Of a DNA stretch of 25,898 bases, positions 2,522 to 20,917 are shown piece by piece; position 1 is the first letter of the stretch, and each line of letters opens with the position of its first letter. The notes below the pieces were generated by a model. It ran no database searches. It saw nothing but the letters and a program-made list of their open reading frames with translations, and was not told the DNA's origin. The position numbers and the translations under genes are program-made. Where the stretch lies: positions 1 to 25,898 of the IMG/VR virus record IMGVR_UViG_3300030333_002846; one strand, 5' to 3'. The DNA is from a virus.

Positions 2522-2522
2522 A

Positions 2523-3996: not shown

Positions 3997-4894
3997 CCTC
4001 TAAAAACTTTCCTTTTATACCATTTAGGCCCATAGCTTTTATATCCCCATATGAATACCAAGCGCCTTTTTGTATAATTAGTTTTTGTTCTACTGCATCC
4101 CGAATATAACTTTCAAGAACATCAATTCCACCTTCTACCCTAAACGGAACAATAGCTGAATCCCAGTTTTCACCACCTGTTTTAGTTTTTCGTAATCTGA
4201 TATTCATATCAAACCCTACTTTTTTATCTCCTTCTGTTATCCAACCCTTTCGCTGCACTTGCAAAATAGAATGAGAAAAGAACACTTGTCCTTGACCTGC
4301 TGGCATTGCGTCTAATGCTACAGGACCCATACTAGCACGTACTTGGTTTATAGCAACAAAAGCTGAACCATTTTGGAGATATGGAAATAATCTAGGGAAC
4401 GCTGTGTTTACAAACCTTGATTGCCACGCCATTGGGCTTTTACCAAATTCTTCTTCTAATATATTTGTTGGCACAAGACCAGCTATACTATCTAATACTA
4501 TAACCTCAAAACCATTTATCATTGCTTGTCGAACGTGTTCTAAAGCTTCTTCTCCGGTAGTTGGTTGAGACACAAGTATCTTTTGGTCATCAACCCCACA
4601 GGTTCTCATCCAATCTTTATCATATGAAAGCTCTGTGTCTATCCAAACAGCTTTACCTCCCATTTTCTGAGCATTTACAACTATCTGTGATGCTAAATAA
4701 GACTTCCCTACATTGGTCGGACCATATATAAGAGTCATTTTCTTGAATGGTATGCCCCCTCCAGTAAGTTTATCTAACGCTGGTATATTAAAAGGTATTC
4801 GATTTGTTACAAAATCATTGCTGTCACCTTTTTGAAAATTTAAATCTTTGTTTTTTAAAAGTTTTTCAATAGCATCTTCAGCATTTTTATCCAT
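3953..4894 (-). CDS. recA: RecA-like recombinase
   Basis: An ATP-dependent strand-exchange protein that drives homologous recombination and repair of phage DNA. The ATPase core is clear: Walker A GPTNVGKS at residues 58-65, a catalytic Glu in WIDTE (E88), Walker B VIVLDS at 131-136, and the allosteric Gln in FVAINQVRAS (Q184). At 313 residues it is shorter than bacterial RecA and lacks the large C-terminal domain, like many phage RecA/UvsX-type proteins. AGGAG lies 8 bases before ATG 4894, and the start overlaps the end of the MazG-like gene by 8 bases. It sits within a block of three nucleases and a resolvase, which supports recombination-dependent replication. Confidence 0.92.
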   Translation of the reverse strand: MDKNAEDAIEKLLKNKDLNFQKGDSNDFVTNRIPFNIPALDKLTGGGIPFKKMTLIYGPTNVGKSYLASQIVVNAQKMGGKAVWIDTELSYDKDWMRTCGVDDQKILVSQPTTGEEALEHVRQAMINGFEVIVLDSIAGLVPTNILEEEFGKSPMAWQSRFVNTAFPRLFPYLQNGSAFVAINQVRASMGPVALDAMPAGQGQVFFSHSILQVQRKGWITEGDKKVGFDMNIRLRKTKTGGENWDSAIVPFRVEGGIDVLESYIRDAVEQKLIIQKGAWYSYGDIKAMGLNGIKGKFLEDDKLFEKLQDELTS

Positions 4895-5129
4895 CTTTGT
4901 GTCTCCTTCTTACTGATTCCGCCCACGCAAAATAAGTTGCGCAAGTCTGAATAAGCTCTATAAATAGTTTTGTGTCGTTATTGCCAAATATTTCTTCTGC
5001 AATATGTCCATTTTTCTCAACAGTTAATATATTCCACCAAGAGTCGTCGTGATTCTGTTCACCCCACAACTGGTCTTGTCTTTCTCTTTCTGCTAAGATA
5101 GCTTCTAAAACAGACGCTCTGCTGGGCAT
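4887..5129 (-). CDS. MazG-like / NTP pyrophosphohydrolase-like protein, degenerate site
   Basis: This small helical protein matches the common phage pattern AERERQDQLWGEQNHDDSWW followed by a MazG-type helix and ELIQTCATYFAWAES. MazG relatives hydrolyse nucleoside triphosphates or related nucleotides. The usual metal-binding EExxE appears here as EKNGH, so two of the three acidic residues are missing and catalysis is doubtful. I place the start at ATG 5129, preceded by AAGGA at 7 bases and 1 base after the upstream stop. An ATG five codons earlier (5144), with GAGG at 9 bases, is also possible. The end overlaps recA by 8 bases. Confidence 0.75.
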   Translation of the reverse strand: MPSRASVLEAILAERERQDQLWGEQNHDDSWWNILTVEKNGHIAEEIFGNNDTKLFIELIQTCATYFAWAESVRRRHKDG

Positions 5130-5130
5130 A

Positions 5131-5349
5131 TTATTTTCCTTCATCTAACATGTCCTCTATTTGAGCATCTACCTTTCCTTTTATAAACTCCCAGACAACA
5201 TCAGCCACTTTTTTTGACTCTTCTAGCTGAGGTTCTACAGGAAGTTCGGTATCTATTTGGTCAACAGTCAAGTCAACCCTACCGTATTGGTTTTGTTCTA
5301 ATGGACCTACTCTAAATGTAAATCCTAAATGTGCACTAACTTTTGCCAT
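5131..5349 (-). CDS. Small acidic hypothetical protein
   Basis: I do not recognise this 72-residue protein. The N-terminal half (residues 1-35) looks like beta strands (KVSAHLGFTFRVG, YGRVDLTVDQI) and the C-terminal half like an acidic helix (residues 42-72, ending in EDMLDEGK). AGGAG lies 6-7 bases upstream of ATG 5349, and the gene begins 1 base after the stop of the PD-(D/E)XK nuclease, so expression is probably coupled. No catalytic or membrane motif is visible. It lies in the recombination/nucleotide block. Confidence 0.7.
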   Translation of the reverse strand: MAKVSAHLGFTFRVGPLEQNQYGRVDLTVDQIDTELPVEPQLEESKKVADVVWEFIKGKVDAQIEDMLDEGK

Positions 5350-5350
5350 T

Positions 5351-5794
5351 TTATTCTCCTTTTTTGTTTGCCGGCGCTTTTCGCCAGTTTAAATCTTTTT
5401 CTTTTAGAAAAAACAATCCTGCCAGTGGAACTAAAACTAGTTTACTTAGGTTATCATCCCCACCCATTTTTACCCTGTGTGGATAATCCTCAACAATTTT
5501 CTCTACAATTTCTTTTAAGGTAGCTACTTTGAAAAATAAAGACATATACTCTTCATTTCTAACCTCTAAATTATGCCACCAATATTCAGATTCTGTTTTA
5601 TATAAGCCACTCGGCTTACCATCAAATTCTATTTCTATCGCTAGGTTACCTGTATTTTTCCACATACCCATTTCAGTTTTAACTTCAATTGGTTTATTTG
5701 CTAGTATCTCAGCCAGCTTTTTTTCCCTTATTTCACCAAGTATCAAGTCGTGTGAAAAGTTTTTATTTAGTTCGTATTTTTTCTTAGTTATCAT
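5351..5794 (-). CDS. PD-(D/E)XK-family phage endonuclease-like protein
   Basis: The pattern is that of a recurrent phage nuclease family. An N-terminal HDLILGEIREKKLAEIL supplies the first acidic residue, then IEVKT gives the E-x-K core (D27, E48, K50 counted from the longest possible start). GNLAIEIEFDGKPSGL and ESEYWWH follow, as in proteins usually annotated as putative endonucleases. The substrate is unknown. I choose ATG 5794 (MITKKKYELNK), because the longer frame to ATG 5827 overlaps the DUF3310 gene by 44 bases and has no ribosome site; ATG 5803 is a third option. The preceding GATAAG is only a weak ribosome site, so translation may depend on the upstream gene, whose end it overlaps by 11 bases. 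Confidence 0.78.
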   Translation of the reverse strand: MITKKKYELNKNFSHDLILGEIREKKLAEILANKPIEVKTEMGMWKNTGNLAIEIEFDGKPSGLYKTESEYWWHNLEVRNEEYMSLFFKVATLKEIVEKIVEDYPHRVKMGGDDNLSKLVLVPLAGLFFLKEKDLNWRKAPANKKGE

Positions 5795-6044
5795 TCTTAT
5801 CATGAAAATGCAATAACAACATTGCATAGTGTATTATTTTTAGTATATCTTTACGAGGTGTGCCTTTTTTGTCATATCTTGAGGCGTACTTTAGAATGTT
5901 TCCTCGACAGAAAGCCTTAGCATCACCACAGGCTTCTATAAAGTCTAAGGTCTGTACCTCACCCTCACTGTAGTGCTGGTCGTATGTATTGTTTACATAC
6001 TCAGCTATTTCTTTTATTATTGCTTCTTCGTTGTACTTACTCAT
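5784..6044 (-). CDS. DUF3310 (SaV-like) protein
   Basis: This 86-residue protein carries the DUF3310 pattern: QHYSEGEVQTLDFIEACGDA (residues 23-42), FCRGNILKYASRYDKKGTPR (45-64), then DILKIIHYAMLLL. The family is widespread in phages and its biochemical role is not established. ATG 6044 has no Shine-Dalgarno. Instead a sigma70-like promoter (positions 6054-6081) ends 9 bases before the ATG, which would give an mRNA with only a few bases of leader. The gene follows the DNA polymerase after a 23-base gap and would be the first gene of a new transcript reading into the recombination block. Confidence 0.85.
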   Translation of the reverse strand: MSKYNEEAIIKEIAEYVNNTYDQHYSEGEVQTLDFIEACGDAKAFCRGNILKYASRYDKKGTPRKDILKIIHYAMLLLHFHDKNDN

Positions 6045-6053
6045 CGTATGTAT

Positions 6054-6081
6054 ATTCTATCAGTTTTTTAGTTCCAGTCAA
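6054..6081 (-). promoter_or_regulatory. Sigma70-like promoter for the DUF3310 gene
   Basis: Read on the minus strand there is TTGACT (6076-6081), a 16-base spacer, then TAGAAT (6054-6059), each hexamer matching the sigma70 consensus at five of six bases. The -35 lies in the last codons of the polymerase gene. The -10 ends 9 bases before ATG 6044, so transcription would start about 2-3 bases before the start codon. No ribosome site is present between them. Prediction from sequence only. Confidence 0.55.
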
Positions 6082-8038
6082 TCAGGTCATCAAAGGTTAA
6101 GGGCTTCAAGTCTTTCTTTATTGCCCATGAACCTTGAAATATTTCCATATCTACATCTAGTGGAATCTCAAGACTATTATTTTTTAACAGCTCTTTTATT
6201 TTATATGGAACACTCTCTAGTTCAGAATCATGTATTTCACATATAATTTCATCATGGACTTGTAATAATAAATTGCTCTTCTTGTTATCTAAATACTTAT
6301 CTACTTCTAACATTCTTTCACTTAATAAATCTGCACTAAGCCCCTGTACTAAATAATTTACACCTTTATACCCAAAGTCTCGATTGATTTTATACAGTCT
6401 GCCATATTTACTTCTAATTTGCCCATCTAATGCTACCTTGTTGACTGCTTTATCAAAGAACTCTTTAGACCCTTCCATAGCAGCAAAGTATTGTTTTTTA
6501 TATTGCCCTGCTTCTCTAGGAGTAGTGTTTAGTTGTTGTGACAGTTTTTTATTTCCTATCCCATATATAGTTCCAAATGTAATTGCTTTAGCCGCCTGAC
6601 GATACTCTTTGAACTTTTCAGATGACTCATCTACACTAAAAGCTAGTTTAGCGGCCTCACTATGAAAATCAACATCATCTTTATTCAATATCTCGTCTAT
6701 TTGTTTGTTTCTGAAGTGAAACATAAACACACGTACTTCCATTTGGCTATAATCAAAGCCCACTAAAGAATAACCTTTTCTAGGTACAAACAAACGCCTT
6801 ATAGAAATTTGAGCTCTGTCAGCTGTATCATAAGACTCGTCGCCTACAAAAGACCAAGTTTTTAGTACCTCGTCTGATAAATCCTTATTCATAGATATAC
6901 CTTTGGCACTTACAGTCGCAGCAATTTTACCTTTTATATCCTTGCGCTCGTCCTCTGATAAGTCCCGTTCTTTTAGTTTAAAGTGGTTCCTAGGTATATT
7001 TTGTAGGTTAGGCCCTCGACTTGATAATCTACCCGTAGCAGTACCCCAATTGCAAAAAGACGTATGCATAACATCTGTTTCTATATAAGGCTCTATATAT
7101 GTAGATACTAGTTTTTCTAAGGTTCTGTATTGCCTAATTAAGCCTGCAAGTCTGTGGTTTATACTTACTAGAGCTGCCTCACTCCATGAGTCTTGCCCTT
7201 TGGGGGTTTTTACAGGGGACTCTATACCTAATTCTGTAAAGACTATCCCTATTTGCGCTGGACTAGAAACATTAAATTCCTTACCAGCTAAGTTATATAT
7301 TTCTTGTTGTACTTCTTCTAGTCTTGTACTTATAGCTTCTTTAGATTGCTTGGCATATTCTCTATCTATGGGTATACCTCTGCGCTCCATCTTATACAAA
7401 ACCTTAGTTAAATCACACTGCATATCAAATATACGTTGTTGTTTAGTTCTTTGTAGCTCTTTACTAAATCTCTCATAAAGGTCTGCGGTTAAAGAAACAT
7501 CTTTTTTACAGTACTCTCCTAATATGTCAGGAGGCGCTAAAGAAAAATCTTTATTCCACTTGTTAGAACGTAACACTTTTTTAGTGTCAATATCATACTG
7601 AACTGCTTCTTGTCCTACTCTTCTTTTACCTGTAGGGGTCAACCCAAGTTCTTTTATTTCCGAGTGCTCAATTAGACGTGCCATGACGATAACATCAACT
7701 AGTTTTTTTGATAAAACTTCTAAGCCCTCATTGTGTAAAAAATGTAAGTCAAACTTTATGTTGTAACCAATATAAGTTTTTACTGACTCGTTTAAAAGAT
7801 TAATAAGTTGTTGTAACTTTTCAAAAGTAAGGTTTTCACCTTGATGGTGTCTGAATGGGTAGTATTGCGTCAAACCTAAATGATTTGGTTCACCAACTCC
7901 TACCCCGCAAATTTGATTGGATTTATATGGTTCCAGTCCATTTGTTTCAACATCAACCACCAAGGTCGGTGCTACCTCTAATACCGACCTCAGTGAATTA
8001 ATGTCGTGTTGAAAGGAACTATTCGTAACTACTGACAA
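6068..8038 (-). CDS. polA: DNA polymerase I (family A) with 3'-5' exonuclease
   Basis: This is the replicative phage polymerase. The N-terminal proofreading exonuclease shows Exo I VVDVETNGL (D29, E31), Exo II GYNIKFDLHF (N93, D97) and Exo III YCKKD (Y176, D180). The polymerase domain shows TATGRLSSRGPNLQNIPR, motif A GFDYSQMEVRV (D429), the O helix R480-x3-K484-x3-F488-x3-Y492, and motif C QVHDEI (H596, D597, E598). F488 corresponds to E. coli Phe762. There is no 5'-3' exonuclease domain. About 60 residues (351-410) separate NIPR from the RRLFVPRKGY palm strand, far more than usual. The start is TTG 8038 with only a weak AAGAAAG site; no ATG lies ahead of Exo I, and an in-frame stop lies just upstream. 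It follows the SSB gene by 12 bases. Confidence 0.95.
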   Translation of the reverse strand: MSVVTNSSFQHDINSLRSVLEVAPTLVVDVETNGLEPYKSNQICGVGVGEPNHLGLTQYYPFRHHQGENLTFEKLQQLINLLNESVKTYIGYNIKFDLHFLHNEGLEVLSKKLVDVIVMARLIEHSEIKELGLTPTGKRRVGQEAVQYDIDTKKVLRSNKWNKDFSLAPPDILGEYCKKDVSLTADLYERFSKELQRTKQQRIFDMQCDLTKVLYKMERRGIPIDREYAKQSKEAISTRLEEVQQEIYNLAGKEFNVSSPAQIGIVFTELGIESPVKTPKGQDSWSEAALVSINHRLAGLIRQYRTLEKLVSTYIEPYIETDVMHTSFCNWGTATGRLSSRGPNLQNIPRNHFKLKERDLSEDERKDIKGKIAATVSAKGISMNKDLSDEVLKTWSFVGDESYDTADRAQISIRRLFVPRKGYSLVGFDYSQMEVRVFMFHFRNKQIDEILNKDDVDFHSEAAKLAFSVDESSEKFKEYRQAAKAITFGTIYGIGNKKLSQQLNTTPREAGQYKKQYFAAMEGSKEFFDKAVNKVALDGQIRSKYGRLYKINRDFGYKGVNYLVQGLSADLLSERMLEVDKYLDNKKSNLLLQVHDEIICEIHDSELESVPYKIKELLKNNSLEIPLDVDMEIFQGSWAIKKDLKPLTFDDLIDWN

Positions 8039-8050
8039 AACAAAACTTTC

Positions 8051-8731
8051 TTAAAAAAGTTCGTCGTCGTCTTTGTCTTCAGTCAATCCACCTTCGGGCA
8101 GTGTAAATGTGCCGTATCTTTCAAAGAAATAATCTTTGATTAGTGGAAGGTCATCAATTTCAGCCATCTTGTCTTCAGGAATTGTATCCTGTTTTGGAGT
8201 AGCTGTAATTGAGTAAGATGTGTCATACATCCCTTGTCCTGTTCTTTTGACTCTTATAACGCCTTTATTCAAAGCGCCCCAGTCACTATAAACGTCTACT
8301 AGCTGATTCCATATATAGTCGCTTCTTCCAAAGCTTAGAGATATAATTCTAAAATCGTTTATATCTTCTCTATACATTTTCTTGCCAGCAGGCCCTTCAA
8401 CTTCTTCCCAATCGTCATTTCGTTTTTCTGTATGGATTACGTTGTGTACGTATGCCCATATAGCAAACTTGTGTGACGGTCTGTTCTCGTCTGGGATGGC
8501 ACTTGTGTCCACCCTGTCATCTTTTAGAACGTTTGTAAATCCATTCCCTACTCTTAGGGTGTATAGATAAATTTCGTCTAAAAACTTATCGTCTTCAGCT
8601 CCAGTAGCTATTGAAGACATAAATACTTGGTCCCCATCTCTGAACCAAAGTTCCCTTCCGGGAGCATTGTTAGCAGAAGCGGGTCTCCTAGTCTCATCTA
8701 TTCTTTTTTGTATTCGTGCTATACCACTCAT
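8051..8731 (-). CDS. Single-stranded DNA-binding protein, acidic tail
   Basis: This protein probably coats ssDNA at the fork and recruits the polymerase and primase. Its N-terminal part carries ELWFRDGDQVFMSSIA (residues 27-42) and SHKFAIWAYVHNVIH, patterns seen in phage ssDNA-binding proteins with an OB-type domain. The last residues, EDKDDDELF, form an acidic tail with a terminal aromatic residue. Phage T7 gp2.5 ends in the same way and uses the tail for protein contacts. The 226-residue length also fits. AGGAG stands 6 bases before ATG 8731. The gene lies between primase and polymerase. The family call is from pattern, not a profile search. Confidence 0.8.
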   Translation of the reverse strand: MSGIARIQKRIDETRRPASANNAPGRELWFRDGDQVFMSSIATGAEDDKFLDEIYLYTLRVGNGFTNVLKDDRVDTSAIPDENRPSHKFAIWAYVHNVIHTEKRNDDWEEVEGPAGKKMYREDINDFRIISLSFGRSDYIWNQLVDVYSDWGALNKGVIRVKRTGQGMYDTSYSITATPKQDTIPEDKMAEIDDLPLIKDYFFERYGTFTLPEGGLTEDKDDDELF

Positions 8732-8742
8732 TTGTTCTCCTA

Positions 8743-9603
8743 TTAAAAGATTGTTGTATTTTTTATTACCTTGTGTAATGTCTCGGTATTTCTAATTTCT
8801 TGGACATCTTTATAATTTTTGGGTAACCTTAAATATGATAACAAAAAACGATTGTTCATGTCAACCGTAGCTTTGTTTATCCCTTTTTGCCCAGCAGCGT
8901 CATTGTCTAGTGACAACACAACTTCTGATGGTCGTAAGGAACTTATCAACTCTACTTGTTTTCGGGAGATACTTGCTCCCAAAATGGCTAAACTAGAATA
9001 TCCGTGTTGATTCAACCACATACAATCTAATGCCCCTTCTACTAAATAAATTTTATTTGTATCTAGTATTTGGTTTATACCAAAGAGTGTTTGCGCTTTA
9101 GCAAATCCTTTGGAGTACATGTATTTAGGAATAGCATTTCTTCTTCTTGCTATCCAACCCAACACTTCGTTATCTATATTTTTTACAGGTATCATAAAAT
9201 CTAAGTATTTATTAGTCCTGCAATCCCATCGTTTTATAGTAGATTTATCAAAACCTCTTTCATAAATCCAATGGTTACTTGGCATATCTTCCAGTCCTTC
9301 GGGTTCTTCATATGAAATTGGCTTTTCTTCAACTGTTAGTTCGTCTAAGAAATCCCAGTCTAAGTCAAGCTCTTCTTCTTGTATTTCTGCATTTATCTCA
9401 TTCCAAGATTTACCTGAATATTCTTTTATAAACCCTTTTAAGCCGCCTTGTCCACAACCAGCAAAACAAATCCACACACCTTTTTCTAAATTTAGGGCGC
9501 AAGATTCTCGTCTGTCTTCGTGAAAAGGGCAACTTATCATTACTTCTTCAGTGTTTTCTACAGAGATACCATATTTCAAAAGGATAGAATGCCAATCAAT
9601 CAA
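8743..9603 (-). CDS. dnaG: DNA primase with CHC2 zinc finger and TOPRIM domain
   Basis: It synthesises RNA primers on ssDNA for lagging-strand replication. The N-terminal CHC2 zinc finger is complete: C25, H28 (SCPFHED), C46 and C50 (WICFAGCGQGG). The TOPRIM domain has E189 (IYLVEGALD), D233-x-D235 (LSLDNDAAGQKG) and a later KDVQEI (D266) that resembles the KDxxE motif. At 286 residues it lacks a helicase-interaction domain, and the helicase is a separate gene nearby. The start is TTG 9603, supported by AAAGGA 7 bases upstream; it overlaps the stop of the preceding small gene (TTGA), implying coupling. No ATG begins the frame before the zinc finger. Confidence 0.92.
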   Translation of the reverse strand: MIDWHSILLKYGISVENTEEVMISCPFHEDRRESCALNLEKGVWICFAGCGQGGLKGFIKEYSGKSWNEINAEIQEEELDLDWDFLDELTVEEKPISYEEPEGLEDMPSNHWIYERGFDKSTIKRWDCRTNKYLDFMIPVKNIDNEVLGWIARRRNAIPKYMYSKGFAKAQTLFGINQILDTNKIYLVEGALDCMWLNQHGYSSLAILGASISRKQVELISSLRPSEVVLSLDNDAAGQKGINKATVDMNNRFLLSYLRLPKNYKDVQEIRNTETLHKVIKNTTIF

Positions 9604-9794
9604 TCTTGTTTCCTTTTTGTAGTAGTAAGAAATAACACAACTTTATTTACAAATCCGTTTTCATCAACAACTCTTCTGTTTCTGATGTCACCAACTGTAA
9701 TTTTTGTTATTGGTTTTCCTCTACCTTTACTTTTTCCTGTTGTGACTACTATGTCATCTTCACTAGTGCCACCTAACCATGAAAAAATACCCAT
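9600..9794 (-). CDS. Small basic protein between helicase and primase
   Basis: I do not recognise this 64-residue protein. It begins MGIFSWLGGTSEDD and ends in a basic KRKQD tail, with a predicted beta-rich middle (DIVVTT, KITVGD, KVVLFLTTTK). The start at ATG 9794 is set by a perfect AGGAGG 6 bases upstream; longer readings to 9824 would overlap the helicase and lack such a site. Its stop overlaps the TTG start of the primase. A strong ribosome site and position between helicase and primase suggest a replisome accessory, which is inference from context. Confidence 0.68.
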   Translation of the reverse strand: MGIFSWLGGTSEDDIVVTTGKSKGRGKPITKITVGDIRNRRVVDENGFVNKVVLFLTTTKRKQD

Positions 9795-9804
9795 TATCGG
9801 CCTC

Positions 9805-11058
9805 CTATTCATACTCGACTTCAAAGTCGGTTAGTTCGTGTATTGTACCATTATCTACACCCCATTGCATATACAACCTATCATGCGCTAACTCACCATC
9901 TCGATATTTCGCAAAGTGTATTAACCTCTTATCGTCATAGTCTTCGACCTTAGCCATCGCAACTGCTACATCGGCTGCTCTAATCAATGCGTCCCCAAAA
10001 GCTACTTGCGCAGCTGATGGTGGGATAAATTCATTAGAGGCATCCCTGTTAGCTTGTGTTGATACCATAATTGGAGTATTTGTAGATATTGCTAAATTTT
10101 TTAACCCGTAAAAAATACCATGTGACTGCTCCCAAGCAGCTTTATCTGTATCTTTTGTTGTCAGTAAATACACACCATCAATAACAACAAATTTAGGGTT
10201 ATGTTTTCTTATCAATCCTGCGATTGATTCGAGAGATATTCCTGTTTGACCTGCAATACCATCACAAATCAATAAAGAATGCTTATTTGATTCTTTTAGG
10301 AACTTTATATAAGAGTCTATATCCATGTCATCACCATGACGTATAGCTCTATGGGAAAAATTGTAACCTTTCATTTTAGCCAGCGCCACGTCTAAACGCA
10401 TAACAATCTGTGGATTAGGCATTTCTGTAGATATTAGTAGTGTTTTATACCCATTATGCACTGCCGTAGCTGCTGAATGTACACATAACCATGTTTTACC
10501 TACTGTTGGTCGCGCAAATGCTGCTATAAGTTCTCCGGGTTGCCAGCCGATACCATTTTGGTTTATGAATTTAAAGCTAGTAGGTACACCCATAAGCCCT
10601 TCACCCATTTTCCTACGTGTTTTTCTGCTCTCCCACTCCTGTACTCTTTCTGTTGTACCAGCATCATATGTCTTAATATCTTCGTCATATACTAAATCAA
10701 CGTCAGATAACCCACTCATAATATTAGCTATTGCTTGTTTAGGGTTTTCTTTTACTAATTCCCTTTGCTGTTGGACTGTTCTAACCACGGCTCGTTGTAA
10801 GACTTGGCTTTTAAACATGTCTAGTGCGTATGAGAACGTCTGCGACTTCGCAGTTGGGTCTAAGGTAGGAAAATTTTCTATAAGCACCTCTTCAGTAGGA
10901 AAGTTATTGTACTTATCTAAATAATCCCCAATAAACTTGAACGCATCTCCATGCTTTGCAAAATCATTGGAATGATAATTAAATTCTTTTAACTTGTCAG
11001 AGTCGTTTAAACCAAATATTATGGCCGACTCTATAAATTCATAACTTGGGCTTGCCAA
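9805..11058 (-). CDS. dnaB: DnaB-type replicative helicase
   Basis: The fork helicase, a hexameric RecA-fold ATPase. Residues 1-120 form the helical N-terminal part that usually binds primase. The core follows: GVPTSFKFINQNGIGWQPGE (158-177), Walker A ARPTVGKT (182-189), catalytic Glu in LLISTEMP (E212), Walker B KFVVIDG (D294), and STQANRD (near residue 340) as the DnaB H3-type Gln motif. The 417-residue length is normal for phage DnaB/gp41-like helicases. The start is TTG 11058, with a TAGGCG site overlapping the stop of the upstream gene one base away. It opens the replication block of helicase, small protein, primase, SSB and polymerase. Confidence 0.93.
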   Translation of the reverse strand: MASPSYEFIESAIIFGLNDSDKLKEFNYHSNDFAKHGDAFKFIGDYLDKYNNFPTEEVLIENFPTLDPTAKSQTFSYALDMFKSQVLQRAVVRTVQQQRELVKENPKQAIANIMSGLSDVDLVYDEDIKTYDAGTTERVQEWESRKTRRKMGEGLMGVPTSFKFINQNGIGWQPGELIAAFARPTVGKTWLCVHSAATAVHNGYKTLLISTEMPNPQIVMRLDVALAKMKGYNFSHRAIRHGDDMDIDSYIKFLKESNKHSLLICDGIAGQTGISLESIAGLIRKHNPKFVVIDGVYLLTTKDTDKAAWEQSHGIFYGLKNLAISTNTPIMVSTQANRDASNEFIPPSAAQVAFGDALIRAADVAVAMAKVEDYDDKRLIHFAKYRDGELAHDRLYMQWGVDNGTIHELTDFEVEYE

Positions 11059-11059
11059 T

Positions 11060-11299
11060 CTATTCGCCTATCTTTGTGTATAAAACTGTATTTAAATCTG
11101 AATATATATAATAATTTACATCAGGTGTATGCAGTTTGTCAATTTCTTCCTTAGCAATGTCAAAAGATGAGTACTCACCAAAAACCCAAAAATTTTGTGG
11201 GTTTAAGTTTTCAGCGATTATTTTAAATTTTTGCGATTCTTTCTCTTTGGGTTTCGTTTTCTGTATTAGTTTCCCTCTGAGCCTCTTCCTTCTGGGCAT
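11060..11299 (-). CDS. Small hypothetical protein overlapping the sigma-like gene
   Basis: I do not recognise this 79-residue protein. The first 25 residues are very basic (PRRKRLRGKLIQKTKPKEK). Residues 26-75 look like a small alpha/beta domain with aromatic residues (NFWVFGEYSSFDIAKEEI, VNYYIYSD). The first 77 bases overlap the 3' end of the sigma-like gene in another frame. ATG 11299 is supported by GGAG 8 bases upstream, and no ATG, GTG or TTG start stands just after the sigma stop, so the overlap looks real. It ends one base before the TTG of the helicase. Confidence 0.68.
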   Translation of the reverse strand: MPRRKRLRGKLIQKTKPKEKESQKFKIIAENLNPQNFWVFGEYSSFDIAKEEIDKLHTPDVNYYIYSDLNTVLYTKIGE

Positions 11300-11918
11300 T
11301 TTCTTGCTCCATTCTTTGTATTAGTTTGGTTTTTATGTTTTCCCTAACTTTGTAAGACGAACTGTAAAAGTCTAATACTTTATCAGCTAGATGTCTAAAA
11401 AATATTAAGTCTGACTTTTGATAATAACTTTGATAAAGGTCTGCAAAAAATAAAACTCTTTTTATAAACTCGTGTCTTAGCTTTACGGTGATTTCATCCA
11501 TAGTCAAACCTTTTAACTTTAGCTCTAAAAAATATTTCTCATTGTTTGCTAGCTCTTGGTTTTCTAACCACAAAGAAATTTCAGTTTCTTCTAAAGCATC
11601 TACAGGATTAATAAGGGCCTGTAAAATTTTAGCTGATACATGAAAATTATCTCCGTTATATGTTTCATCTAAACTTCTTGATATAGGTATTCTTTGCGCT
11701 TTAGTAATTAGGGTACGTATTGTGTTTACCAAAGATGTGTGTAAATATGTATGGAATAATACTCCTTTAGTTTCGTCAAATTTCTTAGCCGATTTTACTA
11801 AGGCAATTCTTAGCTCTTGAGCTATATCTTCACGGTCCATTCCAATAATATCTGTAGTAGATAACATTTTTTGGATTTTAGGTTCCCATTGAAGGACTAA
11901 TTTGTCATTTATTTCCAT
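11223..11918 (-). CDS. Sigma70-family-like transcription factor
   Basis: It is a probable phage sigma factor or sigma-like protein that directs host RNA polymerase. Residues 27-82 match sigma region 2: GMDREDIAQELRIALVKSAK, FDETKGVLFHTYLHTSLVNT and an Arg/Lys-rich end. Residues 130-148 (FLELKLKGLTMDEITVKL) resemble the start of region 4, but the following recognition helix is not clear. The last 30 residues are a charged Glu/Gln/Arg tail overlapping the next gene. ATG 11918 has no ribosome site; a TATAAT lies 6 bases upstream, suggesting a leaderless transcript. An alternative is a diverged sigma-like regulator that acts without region 4. Confidence 0.78.
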   Translation of the reverse strand: MEINDKLVLQWEPKIQKMLSTTDIIGMDREDIAQELRIALVKSAKKFDETKGVLFHTYLHTSLVNTIRTLITKAQRIPISRSLDETYNGDNFHVSAKILQALINPVDALEETEISLWLENQELANNEKYFLELKLKGLTMDEITVKLRHEFIKRVLFFADLYQSYYQKSDLIFFRHLADKVLDFYSSSYKVRENIKTKLIQRMEQENAQKEEAQRETNTENETQRERIAKI

Positions 11919-12332: not shown

Positions 12333-12489
12333 ACTCTTTTACTTCTTCAGAAATTTGAGATTTCCATTTAGCTGCTAAATAGTCTGCATCAACATCCCCA
12401 GATTCTCCGGGACCATTTTTTATCCCGGGTGAAGCAGCAACTATTCTAGTCCATTGTGCATCTGTAAATGATACTGTTACGTCTGGCAT
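12298..12489 (-). CDS. Small hypothetical protein after the fibre gene
   Basis: I do not recognise a named family for this 63-residue acidic protein. It begins MPDVTVSFTDAQWTRIVAA and continues as a probable helix (ADYLAAKWKSQISEEVKEYE). Small proteins with a similar opening occur near tail genes in marine phages, as far as I recall, but I cannot confirm homology here. AAGGAG precedes ATG 12489, and the start overlaps the stop of the hub-fibre gene by one base (TAATG), so it is probably translated together with the virion proteins. Confidence 0.66.
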   Translation of the reverse strand: MPDVTVSFTDAQWTRIVAASPGIKNGPGESGDVDADYLAAKWKSQISEEVKEYERQQASISDF

Positions 12490-12761
12490 TATTTATTCTC
12501 CTTTAATTCGTCTATTTCTTTTTTTAATTCTTGTACACTTTTTATTAATATAGCAGTTAACTCTTCATACCTTAATGCTAATGAACCTTCCTTACCACTT
12601 GCAATATCTAAATCTGGTAAAAGTTTTTTTACATCTTGAGCAATTAATCCTAAGTGTATTTTGTTATCATACTTTGCTATATACTTTTTAGGTTTTAATT
12701 TATTTATAACAGCTAATCCATATGATGAGTCATTTATATTTGTTTTTAAAGATAAATCAGA
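12489..12761 (-). other. Peptidase_S74 intramolecular chaperone domain
   Basis: This is the last 90 residues of the hub-fibre protein. The family motif S-D-x-x-x-K-x-x-I is present as SDLSLKTNI, with S1416 as the expected catalytic serine, D1417 beside it and K1421 in place. Cleavage is expected just before S1416, leaving a mature fibre of about 1415 residues. The domain ends with a short heptad helix (VQELKKEIDELKENK). Confidence 0.85.
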
Positions 12762-15700
12762 AGATATAAGACTACCATTATGTTTTATATCCCCTCCGGC
12801 TTCTATATCACCAGTTGTATATAAATCAGCATCAATACTTCCTAAGCCTGCGTTAGACATGTAAACTCTAGCGGTTCCCCCAAACGAAAATCCTAGTTGA
12901 TTAGCACTACTTCGGTACATTCCGGTGTCTGGGTCGGCTACAAAAGAAAATCCCGGAGTAGAATTGTTTCCTTCTTCTCCTAAAATACTTGTAGCATTAA
13001 TACTAGCTCTGTGAGTACTTCCTGTATAAAAAGATATTGTATTAGTGCTTCTGGTAATATATTCGGTAGTAGCACCATTCCAAGTAAAACCCCCTCGAGT
13101 ATATATATAATCTGTCCCATGGGTAAGAGATAGCCCGTTTCCAGATAAAGTCATATGTTGAGTTCCACCAACTGAAAAGTCCATAGCAGATGTGGAGTTA
13201 TCTTCTTGATAAAGTCCTGTCTGAGTTTGATTTGCAAAGGCTAATGATGGGTCTCCAGCACTTCCATCTGCTAAATCTATAGTACTAATACTACCACCTG
13301 TAGATACTGCTGCAGCTGTACCTGATGTATTTACTACATATAGAACACCTCCAGACATGTATATTGAACCTGCTTCAGACCCATTTGTGTTCCAATTTAT
13401 AGCGCTAAGGTCTGTAGTATCGCTATGTAATTCTAAATGAGTATTCAGAATTTGTATATTAGCTTTATTATTACCTGTACTCTCGTCATCACCAAAAGCA
13501 GAAAAAGCTTGACCTATATTTGTCCCTATATTTAAAGTTTGCGCATAAGAAAATACATTTGAACTACTTATAGATGGGGTGTAAAAAGCTAACCCAAAAT
13601 TACCTGTATCAAATTCAAGGGGTTTTATCTTACCCGCTCTAAAATTACCCAATATATTAGCGCCACTTGAATGCTCCGCCCCAGCTTTTCTTGAAACATT
13701 AAATGACGTTGTACTATTTTTAGAAACGATTTTTATAATTTCATCGTCAATTAACACTGTTTGACCTAACCAAAAACCTCTTTCACCAGACGCATTACCA
13801 TCGTTTGTAACGGTTACTTCTGTCTCTGTTTTATCTAAATCCTCGTTTAAATTACCTAATAAATCTACATTAGCGTCAGTAGTAAAATTCAATTCTCCAT
13901 TAGGAACTATTTCACTAAAAGGTATTTGGTCAATTGCTTCTGGGCCTTTTACATAGCTCTGCATTATAACTTTTGCATATTCACCATGTGTTGTATTAAT
14001 GTCTATGGTTACAGTGGCTAAGGTTATTATTTCTGACTGATAGTAATGTTTAATGTTTTGTTCGTAAAGCGCTTTTGACGCTACCTTTAACACAGAATTA
14101 CCTACTGTATAGTAAACTACAAAAGTTCCCCCGGCAGTTAAACTCGAAACGGAACCTCCAGTTATTTTATATGTTTTACCTTTATATCCTAAATTACCGC
14201 CCTTCCATTTTATTGCTTGTATACCTGTAGACCTTATCTTAAACCCTAAAGTAAGAGGTTCTACTTTTGATGGTAGCCCGCCACCCCCTGCACCTGTACC
14301 TCCCTTAGCTGCTGCTAAGTTTTTATAACCAATTCCTCTTTTTTGGTCTTGCATACCCACAACATTATAAGTAGCCAGTTGAACTCCATCATCCTCAGAG
14401 TAGTCTATTTTAGTTACAGTAAATACTGTGTCTACGTTTACCAAATCGTTTTTTATTTTTATCAAATCTCCGGCTCGTACTTCAACATCAAATCTAACCT
14501 TGTCTGAAGCTGAAATCCCACTGCCACTACTCCACTTAACTCGAACATCTCTATCGGTCTCAGTCACACCAATTGCGTCTACATAACCATATACTCCTGT
14601 TAAATTATCGTTTGAATCAAGTTGATTTACAGTAGTTCCTATTTTTATTCCTTCTGTTATAGGGTTTGTACTACCGCTTAAGTTTAATATTTGAGTTGAA
14701 GTTCCAGATAAAGACTGAATGGTATCAAAAAAATGGTATCTTGGTGGTCTATAGGTAGCTACCCACCCCCTAATAGTTTCTTGAGAACTTCTTTGTAATA
14801 TACCAAAAACTTTTTCTCTAATTATAGTAGGAGATAATATTCCTTTGGTCCACTGATAATTTCCTAATCTAATAAACCCAAAAGAATTTTGTGGGGTGTA
14901 CGATAAGGTCATAGTGCTACCTGAAACGTCCCCAACCCAAGTTTTACTTGAGCCCCCTACTTTCCAGTATTCATCAAAATTTTCATCTGCGTTACCTGAA
15001 ATAATGTGCTCATCTATATGAGACAGCAAAATACCAGTAGAAGATATGTTTTGATAGGTTCCTGATGATTGAGTTGCTTCTTTACCAACATATTGTATTC
15101 TAGCTACGTGGTAGGCAAGAACATGTGCATCATTATCGTGAGTAGTAGCTGTTGTACCATTTTGACCCCTTTCGACACCTATATTATTTGCATGGTCTAA
15201 AGAAGTGATTTTCATAACTTCCGGGTTTGAACCATCATCTACTAAAATGTATTGCCCTACATAAAATCCTGCGGTTCTAGCATCTGAATCTACTGATATA
15301 GTGGTAGCAGCCGCATCGGTTATTGCAGCATTTAATTGCTTTAATCTTACATTTAAGTGTTCGGCACTTTCATTATTAGTACCGGGTGATGTATCAACAA
15401 AACCATGTTCATTTAATTCAGTTCCGTCTATCAAGCACATCCCGCCGGGAGTAATAGTTCCCGATGTACCATTAAAAACAAATGCTTTATCAAGGTCCCC
15501 CGTGTTTACTATAGTTGTAGCTTCAACATACATAAAAGTAGCGGTTTTTTCTACTGGGACAGCAGCTTCCCCGTCTTCTGCGTTTTCAGTAGGACTAACA
15601 GGTTCAAAAAATGTAATTTTAGCACCTGTAAAAATTTCACTTGATGGTCTACCTAAATCATACGTAGTCATCGGAATTAATCTACCAGTTTCTGAGAATG

Positions 15701-17006
15701 ACCCCGAAGCTGTCGTGGCTACGGATGGGAAATATATGCTTAACCCTTGGTCAAATGTACCATCACTAGGGGTTGCACTTCCCCCATAAGTAGCTGCTGT
15801 TGTTGGAAATGTCCCATTCTTAAAATAATTAAAAAAAGCTTTAGGGATTTCATTATTTGCTGTAGCATCTAAAAAATTAGGTGATGCATAATAACTATAC
15901 CCAGATGTTCTTTCATCTGTTGCAGTACCATTGTGGGGGTCTTCAACGGCTAAATTTTGTACAATAGTCAAAAGAGATTTAGCGTCGTCAGTATCTACTA
16001 GCAAATAACCGTTCTTGCCATCAGGGCTGTATTTAACTACAGAATCTTGAAATCTAGCATCAGTAGATGCTGCTGTATTACTAGTTACCTCAATATTGTC
16101 ACTATTGCGCACAACTAAAGATTTAATAATACCACCCCTAGAGTTTGGGGGTGTACTGTTTGTCCCTCTAATAACTGTAATTTCATCCCCTACGGCAAAA
16201 GCATATCTTGTGGCCGGGTCATCTGCTGAATAACCGGCTGAAAAAGATGCCGTTGCTCGAGTAACAGTCAACACTGGGCCTGTAGCACTTCCACCAACAC
16301 CAGTTATAGTCATTTGTTCACTTTGGTCTGAACTGTTAGTTATTTGTATAATGTCTGTTTTTTTAAACCCAGTTCTATTTTCAACATTTACAGTGGTATC
16401 TCCTGAACCACTACCTAAAGCGGTCCTAACTGTAGTTGATGGAGCCCCAATTGTTCCTTTATCTGTGTGTACTTCCGTTGCCGCCCTATCGTAATGTTGA
16501 TAAAAACGGTCGTGTACACCCGGTATAAAATAACCTAAGTGACCTACAGTAGTTTTATCTTGAATTTCTTTTAGCATGTCATGGCAAGAAAGAACTAAAA
16601 CATTACCATGTCTTGCATCATAAGTTTCTTGAATTGTATAAACTATTCCATAAAAATAAGGTTGGTTCGTTTGACCATCCATAATTCTAATTTTTGAAAA
16701 TTGTGTTACACTACCTGACCAAGGCCCTTGAGCTCCAGCGGTAGCAGGATTCCCAACCATTGGTTTAGCTGGACGATTTTTTATTGTAATGGTAGCTTGC
16801 TTAGGTTCATGTATTACATCTTTTATACTAATCGAAACAACCGCTGTATTGGCTGTTGTAGAGTATACATATGCTCCTGATGAAAAGGTTGTCTCTCTAA
16901 AATCTACCCATCTAGCGCTTCCCGTAACATCGGAATTTGCAATGGCCGCTGCTCCACTAACAGACTCATAATAAGCAACTATGGCTCTTTGGTTTCTTGA
17001 TGACAT
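12489..17006 (-). CDS. Tail hub-fibre fusion with C-terminal S74 chaperone
   Basis: This 1505-residue protein probably forms the tail tip and binds the host. Residues 1 to about 890 look like a baseplate hub: IKDVIHEPKQATITIKNRPA, then FSKIRIMDGQTNQPYFYGIV and VLVLSCHDMLKEIQ (gp27/late-control-D-like style), ending near AGDLIKIKNDLV. Similar beta-modules occur at about 196-280, 562-640 and 1055-1125. A Gly-rich linker (901-913) precedes a fibre region with two copies of a DTGMY/FSFGGT-type repeat (about 1250-1292 and 1350-1389). Residues 1415-1505 are the intramolecular chaperone of the Peptidase_S74 family (SSDLSLKTNI, HLGLIAQDVKKLLP, LRYEELTAILIKSVQEL, terminal coiled coil), which trimerises the fibre and then cuts itself off. 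AAGGAG supports ATG 17006. Confidence 0.88.
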   Translation of the reverse strand: MSSRNQRAIVAYYESVSGAAAIANSDVTGSARWVDFRETTFSSGAYVYSTTANTAVVSISIKDVIHEPKQATITIKNRPAKPMVGNPATAGAQGPWSGSVTQFSKIRIMDGQTNQPYFYGIVYTIQETYDARHGNVLVLSCHDMLKEIQDKTTVGHLGYFIPGVHDRFYQHYDRAATEVHTDKGTIGAPSTTVRTALGSGSGDTTVNVENRTGFKKTDIIQITNSSDQSEQMTITGVGGSATGPVLTVTRATASFSAGYSADDPATRYAFAVGDEITVIRGTNSTPPNSRGGIIKSLVVRNSDNIEVTSNTAASTDARFQDSVVKYSPDGKNGYLLVDTDDAKSLLTIVQNLAVEDPHNGTATDERTSGYSYYASPNFLDATANNEIPKAFFNYFKNGTFPTTAATYGGSATPSDGTFDQGLSIYFPSVATTASGSFSETGRLIPMTTYDLGRPSSEIFTGAKITFFEPVSPTENAEDGEAAVPVEKTATFMYVEATTIVNTGDLDKAFVFNGTSGTITPGGMCLIDGTELNEHGFVDTSPGTNNESAEHLNVRLKQLNAAITDAAATTISVDSDARTAGFYVGQYILVDDGSNPEVMKITSLDHANNIGVERGQNGTTATTHDNDAHVLAYHVARIQYVGKEATQSSGTYQNISSTGILLSHIDEHIISGNADENFDEYWKVGGSSKTWVGDVSGSTMTLSYTPQNSFGFIRLGNYQWTKGILSPTIIREKVFGILQRSSQETIRGWVATYRPPRYHFFDTIQSLSGTSTQILNLSGSTNPITEGIKIGTTVNQLDSNDNLTGVYGYVDAIGVTETDRDVRVKWSSGSGISASDKVRFDVEVRAGDLIKIKNDLVNVDTVFTVTKIDYSEDDGVQLATYNVVGMQDQKRGIGYKNLAAAKGGTGAGGGGLPSKVEPLTLGFKIRSTGIQAIKWKGGNLGYKGKTYKITGGSVSSLTAGGTFVVYYTVGNSVLKVASKALYEQNIKHYYQSEIITLATVTIDINTTHGEYAKVIMQSYVKGPEAIDQIPFSEIVPNGELNFTTDANVDLLGNLNEDLDKTETEVTVTNDGNASGERGFWLGQTVLIDDEIIKIVSKNSTTSFNVSRKAGAEHSSGANILGNFRAGKIKPLEFDTGNFGLAFYTPSISSSNVFSYAQTLNIGTNIGQAFSAFGDDESTGNNKANIQILNTHLELHSDTTDLSAINWNTNGSEAGSIYMSGGVLYVVNTSGTAAAVSTGGSISTIDLADGSAGDPSLAFANQTQTGLYQEDNSTSAMDFSVGGTQHMTLSGNGLSLTHGTDYIYTRGGFTWNGATTEYITRSTNTISFYTGSTHRASINATSILGEEGNNSTPGFSFVADPDTGMYRSSANQLGFSFGGTARVYMSNAGLGSIDADLYTTGDIEAGGDIKHNGSLISSDLSLKTNINDSSYGLAVINKLKPKKYIAKYDNKIHLGLIAQDVKKLLPDLDIASGKEGSLALRYEELTAILIKSVQELKKEIDELKENK
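12840..13259 (-). repeat. Fibre repeat, two copies in the hub-fibre protein
   Basis: Residues about 1250-1292 (13131-13259) and 1350-1389 (12840-12959) share the pattern P-x-(L/F)-x-F-x(4)-T-G-(L/M)-Y-x(n)-F-S-x-G-G-T-x(3)-M-x-L/N-x-x-G-L. This kind of repeat is common just ahead of S74 domains in phage fibres and probably forms a trimeric beta shaft. About 55 residues of non-repeat sequence separate the copies. Confidence 0.7.
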
Positions 17007-17638: not shown

Positions 17639-18400
17639 TTATTCCCAACCTAACATTCCTAAGTTTTCATTTGTGTGGCTGAACGCAGTCCAATACGAAT
17701 CTCTTCGGGATATATTTACTGCCCGGTCTTGCGGAAACATATTAAAAACATCTTCTTGGGTTTGAGGATTTGCTCCTATAGCTGCTGCCGCGACTGCTAA
17801 ACTTGCCCCACCTGTTGCAGGCGCTAGGGCTACACCGGCTGCTATCGTCAAAGGTCTATTAGTAATTATGGCCTTTAATATAGCACCCCATGGAACCTCA
17901 CTTATTCCTTTTTTTATAACGGCTGCCAAAAAGTTCATAGTATCCCCTTTGTTATTAAACCAAGCGTTCTCTAACCACTCGGCAGCAGCTTCTGCTTTTT
18001 CTTGTATTAAGGGTATCCAACTAACCATACGTCTAATTACTCTTACAAAAATAGGCATAAAGGGAGCTAACATAACATCAACCATAGCTCCTAAAATTTG
18101 AAATATAGTACCTAATGTACCTGTAAATATCTGGGATTGTTTTAAAATTGATGCAATGCTAAATTGAATACCGAAAGTACCTCCAATAGCTTTAGTCATT
18201 TTACTTAAGAACCCTATTGTTTTCTTAGGTCCTTGAATAATAGATGATTCTAAAACTCTTTTTTTAGCTTCGCTTATAGCCGCTCGAGCTCCTCCAGCCT
18301 CTTCTATAGCTTGTTGAGCGGCACCAATAGAAACCTGAGCGCCTGCTATTATGCTCATTATTAAATCTTCTATAGATGTTCTTTGTCTAGCTGTTACCAT
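17639..18400 (-). CDS. Short tape-measure-like tail protein
   Basis: It is the best candidate for the tail-length ruler. The 253-residue protein is helical and hydrophobic in the middle: SKMTKAIGGTFGIQFSIASI (residues about 66-85), then TLGTIFQILGAMVDVMLAPF and FVRVIRRMVSW, a pattern seen in the C-terminal part of tape-measure proteins that contacts membranes. Residues 178-211 (AIITNRPLTIAAGVALAPAT onward) are another Ala-rich hydrophobic stretch. It directly follows the frameshifted chaperone pair, as tape measures nearly always do. It is much shorter than most siphophage tape measures, implying a short tail or a divided function. AAAGG precedes ATG 18400. Confidence 0.72.
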   Translation of the reverse strand: MVTARQRTSIEDLIMSIIAGAQVSIGAAQQAIEEAGGARAAISEAKKRVLESSIIQGPKKTIGFLSKMTKAIGGTFGIQFSIASILKQSQIFTGTLGTIFQILGAMVDVMLAPFMPIFVRVIRRMVSWIPLIQEKAEAAAEWLENAWFNNKGDTMNFLAAVIKKGISEVPWGAILKAIITNRPLTIAAGVALAPATGGASLAVAAAAIGANPQTQEDVFNMFPQDRAVNISRRDSYWTAFSHTNENLGMLGWE

Positions 18401-18411
18401 ATTATTACCTT

Positions 18412-19013
18412 TTAAAATTTACCTAATGTTGTTTGACTCATTTGTCTTAATTCTTGTTCATGCTGTATATCTTGAAAAACTGACTCAAAAGACATTATCA
18501 TGTAAATTTCTGTTTCAGTTAACTCGTGTATTGCCTCCCATGAAATACCTATTTTTAATAACCTTAATATTGTAGCCCAATGAGTAAAAACTAATCTTTC
18601 ATCAGCATTTACTTTATTATTATCTACTAAAAATAATTTTATCCTTTTTTTATTTCATCAGGCGAAATACCTCCTTCATCAGACCCAAAAGCTGTTGGAA
18701 CCAATGATTCTAATGCTTTTCCTAATCTTTCATCAATTGATAGCAAAAATGCTTCTGTTGTAGCTCCCCAAGGTGCTTCAACTATCATTTGTTTTAAACA
18801 TTCTCTAATGTATAAATCCCCATCAAACGACTGTTCTCCTCCGCCACCTACCTTTAAACATTTAGAAACTAGTTGATTTCTTTTTACCCACGATAATTGT
18901 TTTACCGTAACCTCAAAAGAATCGCCAGTTTCATCTATAGTTAATGTATGTGTTTGTAAATCGGACTTTACTTGATATTTTGAATAATCAAAATTTTTAC
19001 TTTGCTTTCCCAT
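18412..19013 (-). CDS. Tail assembly chaperone long form, made by -1 frameshift
   Basis: Slipping by -1 at the A7 run (18645-18651) lets ribosomes bypass TAA 18639-18641 and add 77 residues, giving about 200. The added part reads RIKLFLVDNNKVNADERLVF, then THWATILRLLKIGISWEAIH, then ELTETEIYMIMSFESVFQDI and a polar helix ending in GKF, with stop TAA at 18412-18414. This matches the gpG/gpGT scheme of lambda-like phages, where the long form recruits the tail tube subunit to the tape measure. The extension has no start codon or ribosome site of its own that I can find, and it fills the gap before the tape-measure gene exactly. Confidence 0.82.
18639..19013 (-). CDS. Tail assembly chaperone, short form (gpG-like)
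   Basis: This 124-residue cytoplasmic chaperone of tail assembly is not expected in the virion. It begins MGKQSKNFDYSKYQVKSDLQ, has a beta-rich N-terminus (TLTIDETGDSFEVTVKQLSW) and a helical C-terminal half with VKRNQLVSKCLKVGG and EAFLLSIDERLGKALESL. Such two-part proteins stand between major tail protein and tape measure in siphophages and myophages. It ends in ISPDEIKKG before TAA. GGAG precedes ATG 19013. The call rests on gene order, fold pattern and the frameshift signal at its end. Confidence 0.8.
   Translation of the reverse strand: MGKQSKNFDYSKYQVKSDLQTHTLTIDETGDSFEVTVKQLSWVKRNQLVSKCLKVGGGGEQSFDGDLYIRECLKQMIVEAPWGATTEAFLLSIDERLGKALESLVPTAFGSDEGGISPDEIKKG
18645..18676 (-). other. 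-1 ribosomal frameshift signal
   Basis: On the minus strand the heptamer A AAA AAA (18651-18645) stands in the correct register (ATA AAA AAA GGA TAA). The zero-frame stop follows one codon later. An AAGGAGGT (18676-18669), fully complementary to the 16S rRNA tail, lies 17 bases upstream; internal Shine-Dalgarno sites stimulate -1 shifts in dnaX, though there at about 10 bases. I see no strong downstream hairpin. Confidence 0.75.
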
Positions 19014-19033: not shown

Positions 19034-20917
19034 TTATGGGTATACCCCCACGCCATCTTCTATTAATATTCTAAGCGACCTGAATGTCATGTCAAGTTCT
19101 ACTTCTAAAGCGCTTTCACCTCCTATACCGTGATTAGCGCTTAATATAAATAATCCTTGTTTATTTAGTTGATTGGTTGGAACTGTTGTGGTTGTTGTCC
19201 CCTGCATTCCATTTGAACTATCCGAGCTAGATGTCGGAATGTCTATTCTTATAAAATCGTTTGTACCTCTTTCAAATATTAAACTCGCTGCAAAACCTAT
19301 TTTATTCGCATTGTCACCACCAAAATCACCTTCTAATAGAAGTTGTTTGAAAAATTCAAGACCTCCTGTTTCAGCTGTTGAACTTGCTGCTACAGAGTCC
19401 GGTAATACAATAGTAGCTGACATTGAGTACTCTCTAGCACCCTCTCTAATTTCGTAGGGGCCTCTAGCTCTTTTTCCTTGTTGACTAATATAATATCTTG
19501 GTTCTTCTCCATTTGATACAGATATAGCAAAACTTCTAATTTTTGCTACTTCTATTCCGGCTGTATTGCCTGCATGGTGCAACATTTTTATGGTGCCTTG
19601 TGAAAAATAATATGGCGCTGTACTTGGGTATCCAGTACCATCGTTGTTACCATTACCATTGTGATAAGGCTCACCTACATCAGTTTGTGTAATAGACTGC
19701 ATCAAAGAAAATCTTGGCATACTTGCTGTTGGGTTAGCTCCATAGTATAAGTCTCCAGATTGTGGAGCATTTGAACTACCGGTTCCTTGTTGCAAAGAAC
19801 TGTTTTGATTGTGTACCATGTTCATAAAGTTTACACTATCCCATGACATAGATAACATACCACCTTCTTCTGCAGATAAGGTAGCAGAGCCTATCATACC
19901 ACCTAAATATCTTCTATCAAAGTTATTAGCAGCTGTTTCTCCACTGTCTTTCATATGTACATGCCAAGAAACAGTAGATAAGTCATTTTCTTCAACTATT
20001 TCATGTATATAATATGCGCTTGAAGCTACTTCTGCCACTAAATCGTTTTCTGCGTGGTCAAAACTTAATGGGTAATTTAATTTAATGTAAGCCCCAGTTC
20101 CAGTCGTACTACCAGAGTTTGGTAATCCTACAACTCTGCGAACCTCACTTGTTTTTGTTGTGTTGTTTGTATTAGCAGCATCATATATACAAATATAATC
20201 TCCCGCCACAAGATTGTGGTTACCCCCTCCGTCCATCTGAATTGTGATAAACGTATCACCTTTTTTTGCGCCTCCCGCAGGTAGGTCCATAGAAGCTGAA
20301 CCAGAAGTAGAAGAAGGAACAGTTGTTACTTTACCGAAAGGGAACCTAAGAGGCCAGCCATTTATTAATGTAATTCCACTTACAGCACCATTTAAAGTTT
20401 GTTGGCCTGAATAAGCAATGTTCCAGTTTCTTTTACTCTCTGTCCCCAAAAACCTTCTACCCTCAATACTCATTTCTGGGTCTGGGGTATTTACTGATTC
20501 ATAAACTCCGGGAAGAAATGTTATATATTTAGAGTCATCATTATCACTTGCTGCAGAAATTTCTTTCACATCAGCGGTTGCTCCATACGCAAATTGTAAT
20601 GGCCTGTCTAAAAGAACTGTTATAGTATTTCCCGGGTCTGTGCCTACTTGTTGAGTTCCTGATAATTTTTCTATCCGCCTTGCTTCCCACTCAATTCTAT
20701 TAGTTGCACTATAAGCACCAATTCTTATCATATCCCCTTCCACAAAAGCTGCTGATGCAATGGTATTAATCGTAATACTTCGGTCACCTATGTTTGCAGC
20801 TGCTTGTAGTTCTGCTGTCGCGGTTGCAGTGGTCCCAAGCATCATTTCAGCGTCAGCGCCTTGAACGGTTTCTGCTGCAAAGGTAAGTTGTGCTTGGTCG
20901 CTTCTATATATTGCCAT
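19034..20917 (-). CDS. Major tail (tube) protein with inserted beta-modules
   Basis: This probably forms the tail tube. Characteristic tube features are QTLNGAVSGITLINGWPLRF (residues 172-191), FDRRYLGGMIGSATLSAEEG (333-352) with GGMLSMSWDSVNF, and a second half with IRSFAISVSNGEEPRYY, REGAREYSMSATIVLPDS and LEVELDMTFRSLRI. It is followed by the frameshifted chaperone and tape measure, the standard order. At 627 residues it is unusually long. Two beta-modules (about 36-118 and 210-298) account for some of this, and the second interrupts the tube core. GGAG stands 9 bases before ATG 20917, and an AT dyad element lies farther upstream. Confidence 0.82.
   Translation of the reverse strand: MAIYRSDQAQLTFAAETVQGADAEMMLGTTATATAELQAAANIGDRSITINTIASAAFVEGDMIRIGAYSATNRIEWEARRIEKLSGTQQVGTDPGNTITVLLDRPLQFAYGATADVKEISAASDNDDSKYITFLPGVYESVNTPDPEMSIEGRRFLGTESKRNWNIAYSGQQTLNGAVSGITLINGWPLRFPFGKVTTVPSSTSGSASMDLPAGGAKKGDTFITIQMDGGGNHNLVAGDYICIYDAANTNNTTKTSEVRRVVGLPNSGSTTGTGAYIKLNYPLSFDHAENDLVAEVASSAYYIHEIVEENDLSTVSWHVHMKDSGETAANNFDRRYLGGMIGSATLSAEEGGMLSMSWDSVNFMNMVHNQNSSLQQGTGSSNAPQSGDLYYGANPTASMPRFSLMQSITQTDVGEPYHNGNGNNDGTGYPSTAPYYFSQGTIKMLHHAGNTAGIEVAKIRSFAISVSNGEEPRYYISQQGKRARGPYEIREGAREYSMSATIVLPDSVAASSTAETGGLEFFKQLLLEGDFGGDNANKIGFAASLIFERGTNDFIRIDIPTSSSDSSNGMQGTTTTTVPTNQLNKQGLFILSANHGIGGESALEVELDMTFRSLRILIEDGVGVYP

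Follow-up and report, generated by a model that had tools for sequence, protein, structure and literature searches.

Organization of the Locus

The window, i.e., the whole stretch of DNA analysed, was a virus record of 25,898 nt whose genes lay on the minus strand, as did all the features described below. It came from an uncultivated virus that is probably a tailed bacteriophage. The order of the genes was a 627-aa ORF encoding a probable tail tube protein (19034..20917), gpG, T, and a 253-aa ORF in the tape-measure position (17639..18400). The frame of gpG, the putative tail assembly chaperone of 124 aa, occupied 18639..19013, with the ATG at 19013 and the zero-frame stop TAA at 18639..18641. 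The codons at its 3' end were GAT GAA ATA AAA AAA GGA TAA. They contained a slippery heptamer, A_AAA_AAA, followed by G (18645..18651), which was in register, with a single sense codon between it and the gpG stop. Ribosomes that slipped by −1 would read on as AGG ATA AAA... for 77 codons up to the TAA at 18412-18414. This −1 frame, the T domain, took up 18412..18645 including its stop, and the open −1 frame itself began at 18654. The fusion, gpGT, would be about 200 aa long. The T stop (18412) and the start of the next ORF (18400) were separated by 11 bases, and in the T frame of the window the first 25 codons from the slip site contained no ATG, GTG or TTG. An earlier sequence-only reading had described the heptamer in the right register one codon before a stop, the 77-codon open frame ending 11 bases before the ORF in the tape-measure position, and the lack of a start in the downstream frame; all of its coordinates and counts were correct.

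The gene order fitted the position of gpG/gpGT, with the tube and the tape measure assigned by position and one weak match. The 627-aa ORF matched Pfam Phage_tube_2 weakly (E 0.09), and its place in the order was as in HCTV-2. The 253-aa ORF had no profile match. The ORF at this place in the relatives was 253-743 aa long (a range including one ORF truncated by a contig end), and that of the window was the shortest in the family. If it is the tape measure, a very short tail would be predicted. Furthermore, Rfam and tRNA scans of the window gave no matches.

Identity of gpG

The family of gpG was compared with known chaperones by profile and by fold. The tail assembly chaperone family phrog_25860 was matched by 16 of the 21 family members, with a best E of 1.1e-6. 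The relatives were also weakly similar to XkdN-like chaperones, with weak matches to Pfam Phage_TAC_5 in 11/21 (best E 0.0028) and to PHROG 389 in 6/21, whereas the gpG of the window reached 13.4 bits against Phage_TAC_5, under the curated cut-off of 27. The top fold match of gpG in the PDB was another protein of the XkdN-like kind, YqbN (3klu), and was not significant (E 0.75). The gpG model was of moderate confidence (pLDDT 70). With this model, the Foldseek matches were the chaperones of HHTV-2 (E 5.2e-6) and Bacillus phage Gemini (E 5e-4), with Mu FS-gp41 as a weak match (E 9e-3). In addition, the gpG profile aligned with HCTV-2 gp40 (E 2e-5), and a sequence search of the PDB gave no relevant match. 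Judged by profile and fold similarity, gpG is probably a tail assembly chaperone.

Conservation of the Slippery Heptamer

A7 runs were common in the window (14 on the coding strand and 2 on the opposite strand) and in-register heptamers were present in many of its other genes, so the A7 alone was not significant. A −1 frame open for 77 codons would occur by chance with P of about 2e-4 to 4e-3. A chance A7 was possible when the window was considered alone, and was ruled out by the conservation among relatives. The relatives were obtained by scans of viral contigs, which gave 7, then 24, then 80 loci; 70 distinct sequences, the window included, were used, of which 55 were non-redundant. No relative was found in cellular genomes. 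In GenBank, megablast found no close phage, and tblastn gave only HHTV-2, weakly.

In the alignment, each of the 70 distinct sequences had a canonical heptamer, always in one and the same column, and none of them combined the lack of a slippery run with a separate start for the downstream frame, as relatives speaking against the sequence-only reading would have done. The heptamer was A_AAA_AAA in 67 sequences, A_AAA_AAC in one (L108) and U_UUA_AAA in two (L107 and L126). Among the 67, the run was exactly A7 in 63, A8 in one and A9 in three. All of the relatives' heptamers were of the form X_XXY_YYZ and in register, with the gpG stop 1-5 codons later. The three A9 members (L119, L123 and L125) formed a diverged clade, in which the gpG stop was 5 codons past the heptamer. 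In the tree, the two U_UUA_AAA members were sisters and the A_AAA_AAC member was separate, which indicates that the heptamer changed at least two times, always to a canonical form. Moreover, in counts that ignore shared ancestry, the first Lys codon of the site was AAA in 53/53 non-redundant members, whereas AAG made up 27% of the Lys codons elsewhere in gpG, and in the same set the codon preceding the site was always ATA for Ile (27/27) and always GTA for Val (15/15).

Because the heptamer was conserved in 70/70, and not because of the A7 alone, we conclude from this comparison that the locus very probably uses a programmed −1 ribosomal frameshift of the gpG/gpGT kind at A_AAA_AAA. Frameshifting by −1 in phage tail chaperone genes is a long-established mechanism.

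The same run might instead act on RNA polymerase, whose slippage on A7 would add one A to some mRNAs, or remove two, and such mRNAs would be translated straight through. Most relatives did have an A homopolymer, and the three distant members had A9; in their clade, polymerase slippage could contribute. However, the run was exactly A7 in 63/70 and A6 followed by C in L108, and L107 and L126 had TTTAAAAG, with an A run of only 4, all of them in the register of the ribosomal heptamer. Furthermore, a downstream hairpin at ribosomal spacing would be unexpected if an elongating polymerase slipped. As an explanation for the family, polymerase slippage is therefore very unlikely.

Downstream Hairpin

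For stimulation by a hairpin, the stem-loop was expected to begin some 5-9 nt past the heptamer on its 3' side. The window had a candidate 3' hairpin of 7 bp at 18619..18637, 7 nt past the heptamer, which was A+U-rich and weak alone. Dinucleotide-shuffle z values were −2.0 and −2.8 for the folded stretch as a whole, and the synonymous-shuffle z of the hairpin was only −1.1 to −1.3. In the family, RNA structure peaked just 3' of the heptamer, at +4..+62, with a mean synonymous-shuffle z of −1.28 and with z below −1.5 in 45% of the members, compared with values that mostly lay from −0.6 to 0.2 elsewhere. In a test that ignores shared ancestry, a member's own two arms paired better with each other than with arms swapped in from elsewhere in the family; with z −5.7, this column pair ranked first of 108. 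The stem drifted in exact register among lineages, and the hairpin of the window differed from that of its nearest relative. A hairpin directly 3' of the heptamer was supported for the family and weakly for the window.

A second predicted hairpin of the window (18583..18613) was rejected. Its pairing was not retained in the nearest relative (L010/L048), as seen on inspection of L010.

Upstream Shine–Dalgarno-like Element

The Shine–Dalgarno-like (SD-like) sequence AAGGAGGT was located at 18669..18676, 17 nt 5' of the heptamer, and its role is doubtful. The reported spacing for −1 stimulation by an SD sequence is 9-14 nt (PMC5009743); the gap of 17 nt in the window was outside this range and did not agree with a dnaX-type spacing. 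The sequence-only reading had already regarded the gap as longer than the spacing known in dnaX, and this held, whereas conservation of the element across the family was not borne out by the alignment. AAGGAGGT was common only to the clade of the window and some scattered relatives, with SD-like sequence upstream in about a third of the relatives. As a family-wide conserved element it was rejected, since the mean best SD-like match (−6.27) was the same as that of synonymous shuffles (−6.12 ± 0.22). The SD-like 8-mers of the relatives peaked 14-19 nt upstream of the heptamer, and most of this peak could be attributed to the Gly/Glu-rich linker. Strong matches at gaps of 14-19 were in mild excess, with 15 compared with 9.1 ± 2.0 in synonymous shuffles. 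Across the family, the downstream hairpin, which was absent from the sequence-only reading, was a better-supported stimulator than AAGGAGGT.

A trade-off between the SD-like element and the hairpin was also considered and rejected; the raw rank correlation of −0.25 (P 0.04) was gone with independent contrasts (r −0.12, P 0.33). It would be conceivable, if rather unlikely, that the slip site stays constant in the family as its stimulators are replaced, with many lineages using the hairpin and the clade of the window having largely lost it and relying on a strong SD-like element at 15-18 nt, beyond the known working spacing.

The T Domain

The T domain was a collinear −1-frame extension of gpG in 70/70 sequences. 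It started with KKR in most of them and had motifs including YW and LLK.GI.W. The median dN/dS of T was 0.21 over 51 pairs, with 0.28 for the window and L048, and the domain was under purifying selection. The AlphaFold model was helical with a pLDDT of 92. On this comparative and predicted evidence, the T extension is a real protein, a conserved domain modelled as helical. In a profile search, as had been suggested for it, the 77-residue extension gave nothing better than E 0.02 and no match to known T domains. The fold search likewise gave no significant match.

Instead of being fused to gpG, the T domain might be made as a separate protein, through termination-reinitiation or initiation at a non-AUG codon. 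In 18 of the 55 non-redundant sequences (e.g., L054, L064, L065 and L085), an ATG in the T frame was at or overlapping the gpG stop, as TAATG or ATGA, and the SD-like sequence found upstream in some relatives is in line with such a start. However, 26/55 had no ATG, GTG or TTG up to +45, the window had none in the stretch given above, and the heptamer was kept in every relative, with or without the ATG. Separate translation in place of a fusion is thus most improbable, and the 18 sequences with an ATG at the gpG stop might produce a free T domain in addition to the frameshift product. Although homopolymers invite errors and the virus record of the window is metagenomic, the chance that a mistake in sequencing or assembling the run split one continuous gene is practically negligible, as the same frame junction recurred in 70 distinct sequences that came from many samples, three of the junctions were not homopolymers of 7 or more, and the gpG stop was always within 1-5 codons.

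Proposed Mechanism and Comparison with Known Systems

The programmed −1 frameshift joining the two chaperone frames, as proposed from the sequence alone, gained support from the 70/70 heptamers, the collinear T domain under purifying selection and the chaperone similarity of gpG. We infer that slippage occurs, at a rate that would leave most ribosomes in the zero frame, that a stimulator acts on it in the window, and that the products serve in tail assembly. Most ribosomes would read gpG through to its stop and release the 124-aa protein. A minority would slip one base back, as both tRNA-Lys re-pair with the −1 codons, and would read AGG instead of GGA-TAA to give gpGT. If the proteins work as they do in lambda, the tape measure protein would bind to the G part and tail tube protein would be recruited by the T domain, with tail assembly depending on the G:GT ratio.

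The gpG/gpGT frameshift of lambda has been described in a review (PMC5009743). The locus of the window was similar to that of lambda and its counterparts in long-tailed phages in the overlapping frames between the putative tube and tape measure genes, the proposed −1 shift late in the first frame, and the T domain as a C-terminal extension. It differed from the lambda type in the heptamer, which was A_AAA_AAA in the window, and in having no detectable similarity to known T domains. The distant relative HCTV-2 (Haloarcula californiae tailed virus 2, NC_021319) is listed in the same review with the viruses believed to shift by −1 (PMC5009743). The joined product of its gp40/gp41 is annotated, like the fusion proposed here, and gp40 ends with GCA AAA AAC TGA, so that an A_AAA_AAC is directly before the stop, in the same place as the site of the window. 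The gene order of tail tube, chaperone and tape measure, as assigned in the window, was shared as well. However, the T domain of HCTV-2 has about 164 aa compared with 77 in the window, and its host is archaeal, whereas the window carried PolA, DnaB, RecA and a sigma-70 region 2 protein of the bacterial type. HHTV-2 was rejected as a frameshift parallel, because no in-register heptamer was found at the end of gp47.

The E. coli dnaX cassette had in common with the window an A-rich heptamer and an SD-like motif upstream, together with the 3' hairpin of the family. It was different in that the SD gap of the window, 17 nt, was outside 9-14 nt and the SD was not conserved in the family. In addition, the dnaX shift shortens the protein, whereas the shift of the window would extend it.

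The present results correct the annotation of an uncultivated virus group, as the T domain would be missed where there is no usable start, which is the case in many members. Moreover, the 70-member alignment, with its three canonical heptamer forms and arm-specific hairpin pairing, provides a data set on selection at phage frameshift sites.

Two other regions of the window, both on the minus strand, were also recognizable. A replication module at 2066-11918 contained RuvC-like, RecA, PolA, DnaG-like primase, DnaB and sigma-70 region 2 proteins. These genes suggest a bacterial host, though the nearest named chaperones are those of haloarchaeal viruses. Furthermore, a tail protein of 1505 aa at 12489-17006 carried a C-terminal S74 endosialidase-type intramolecular chaperone domain.
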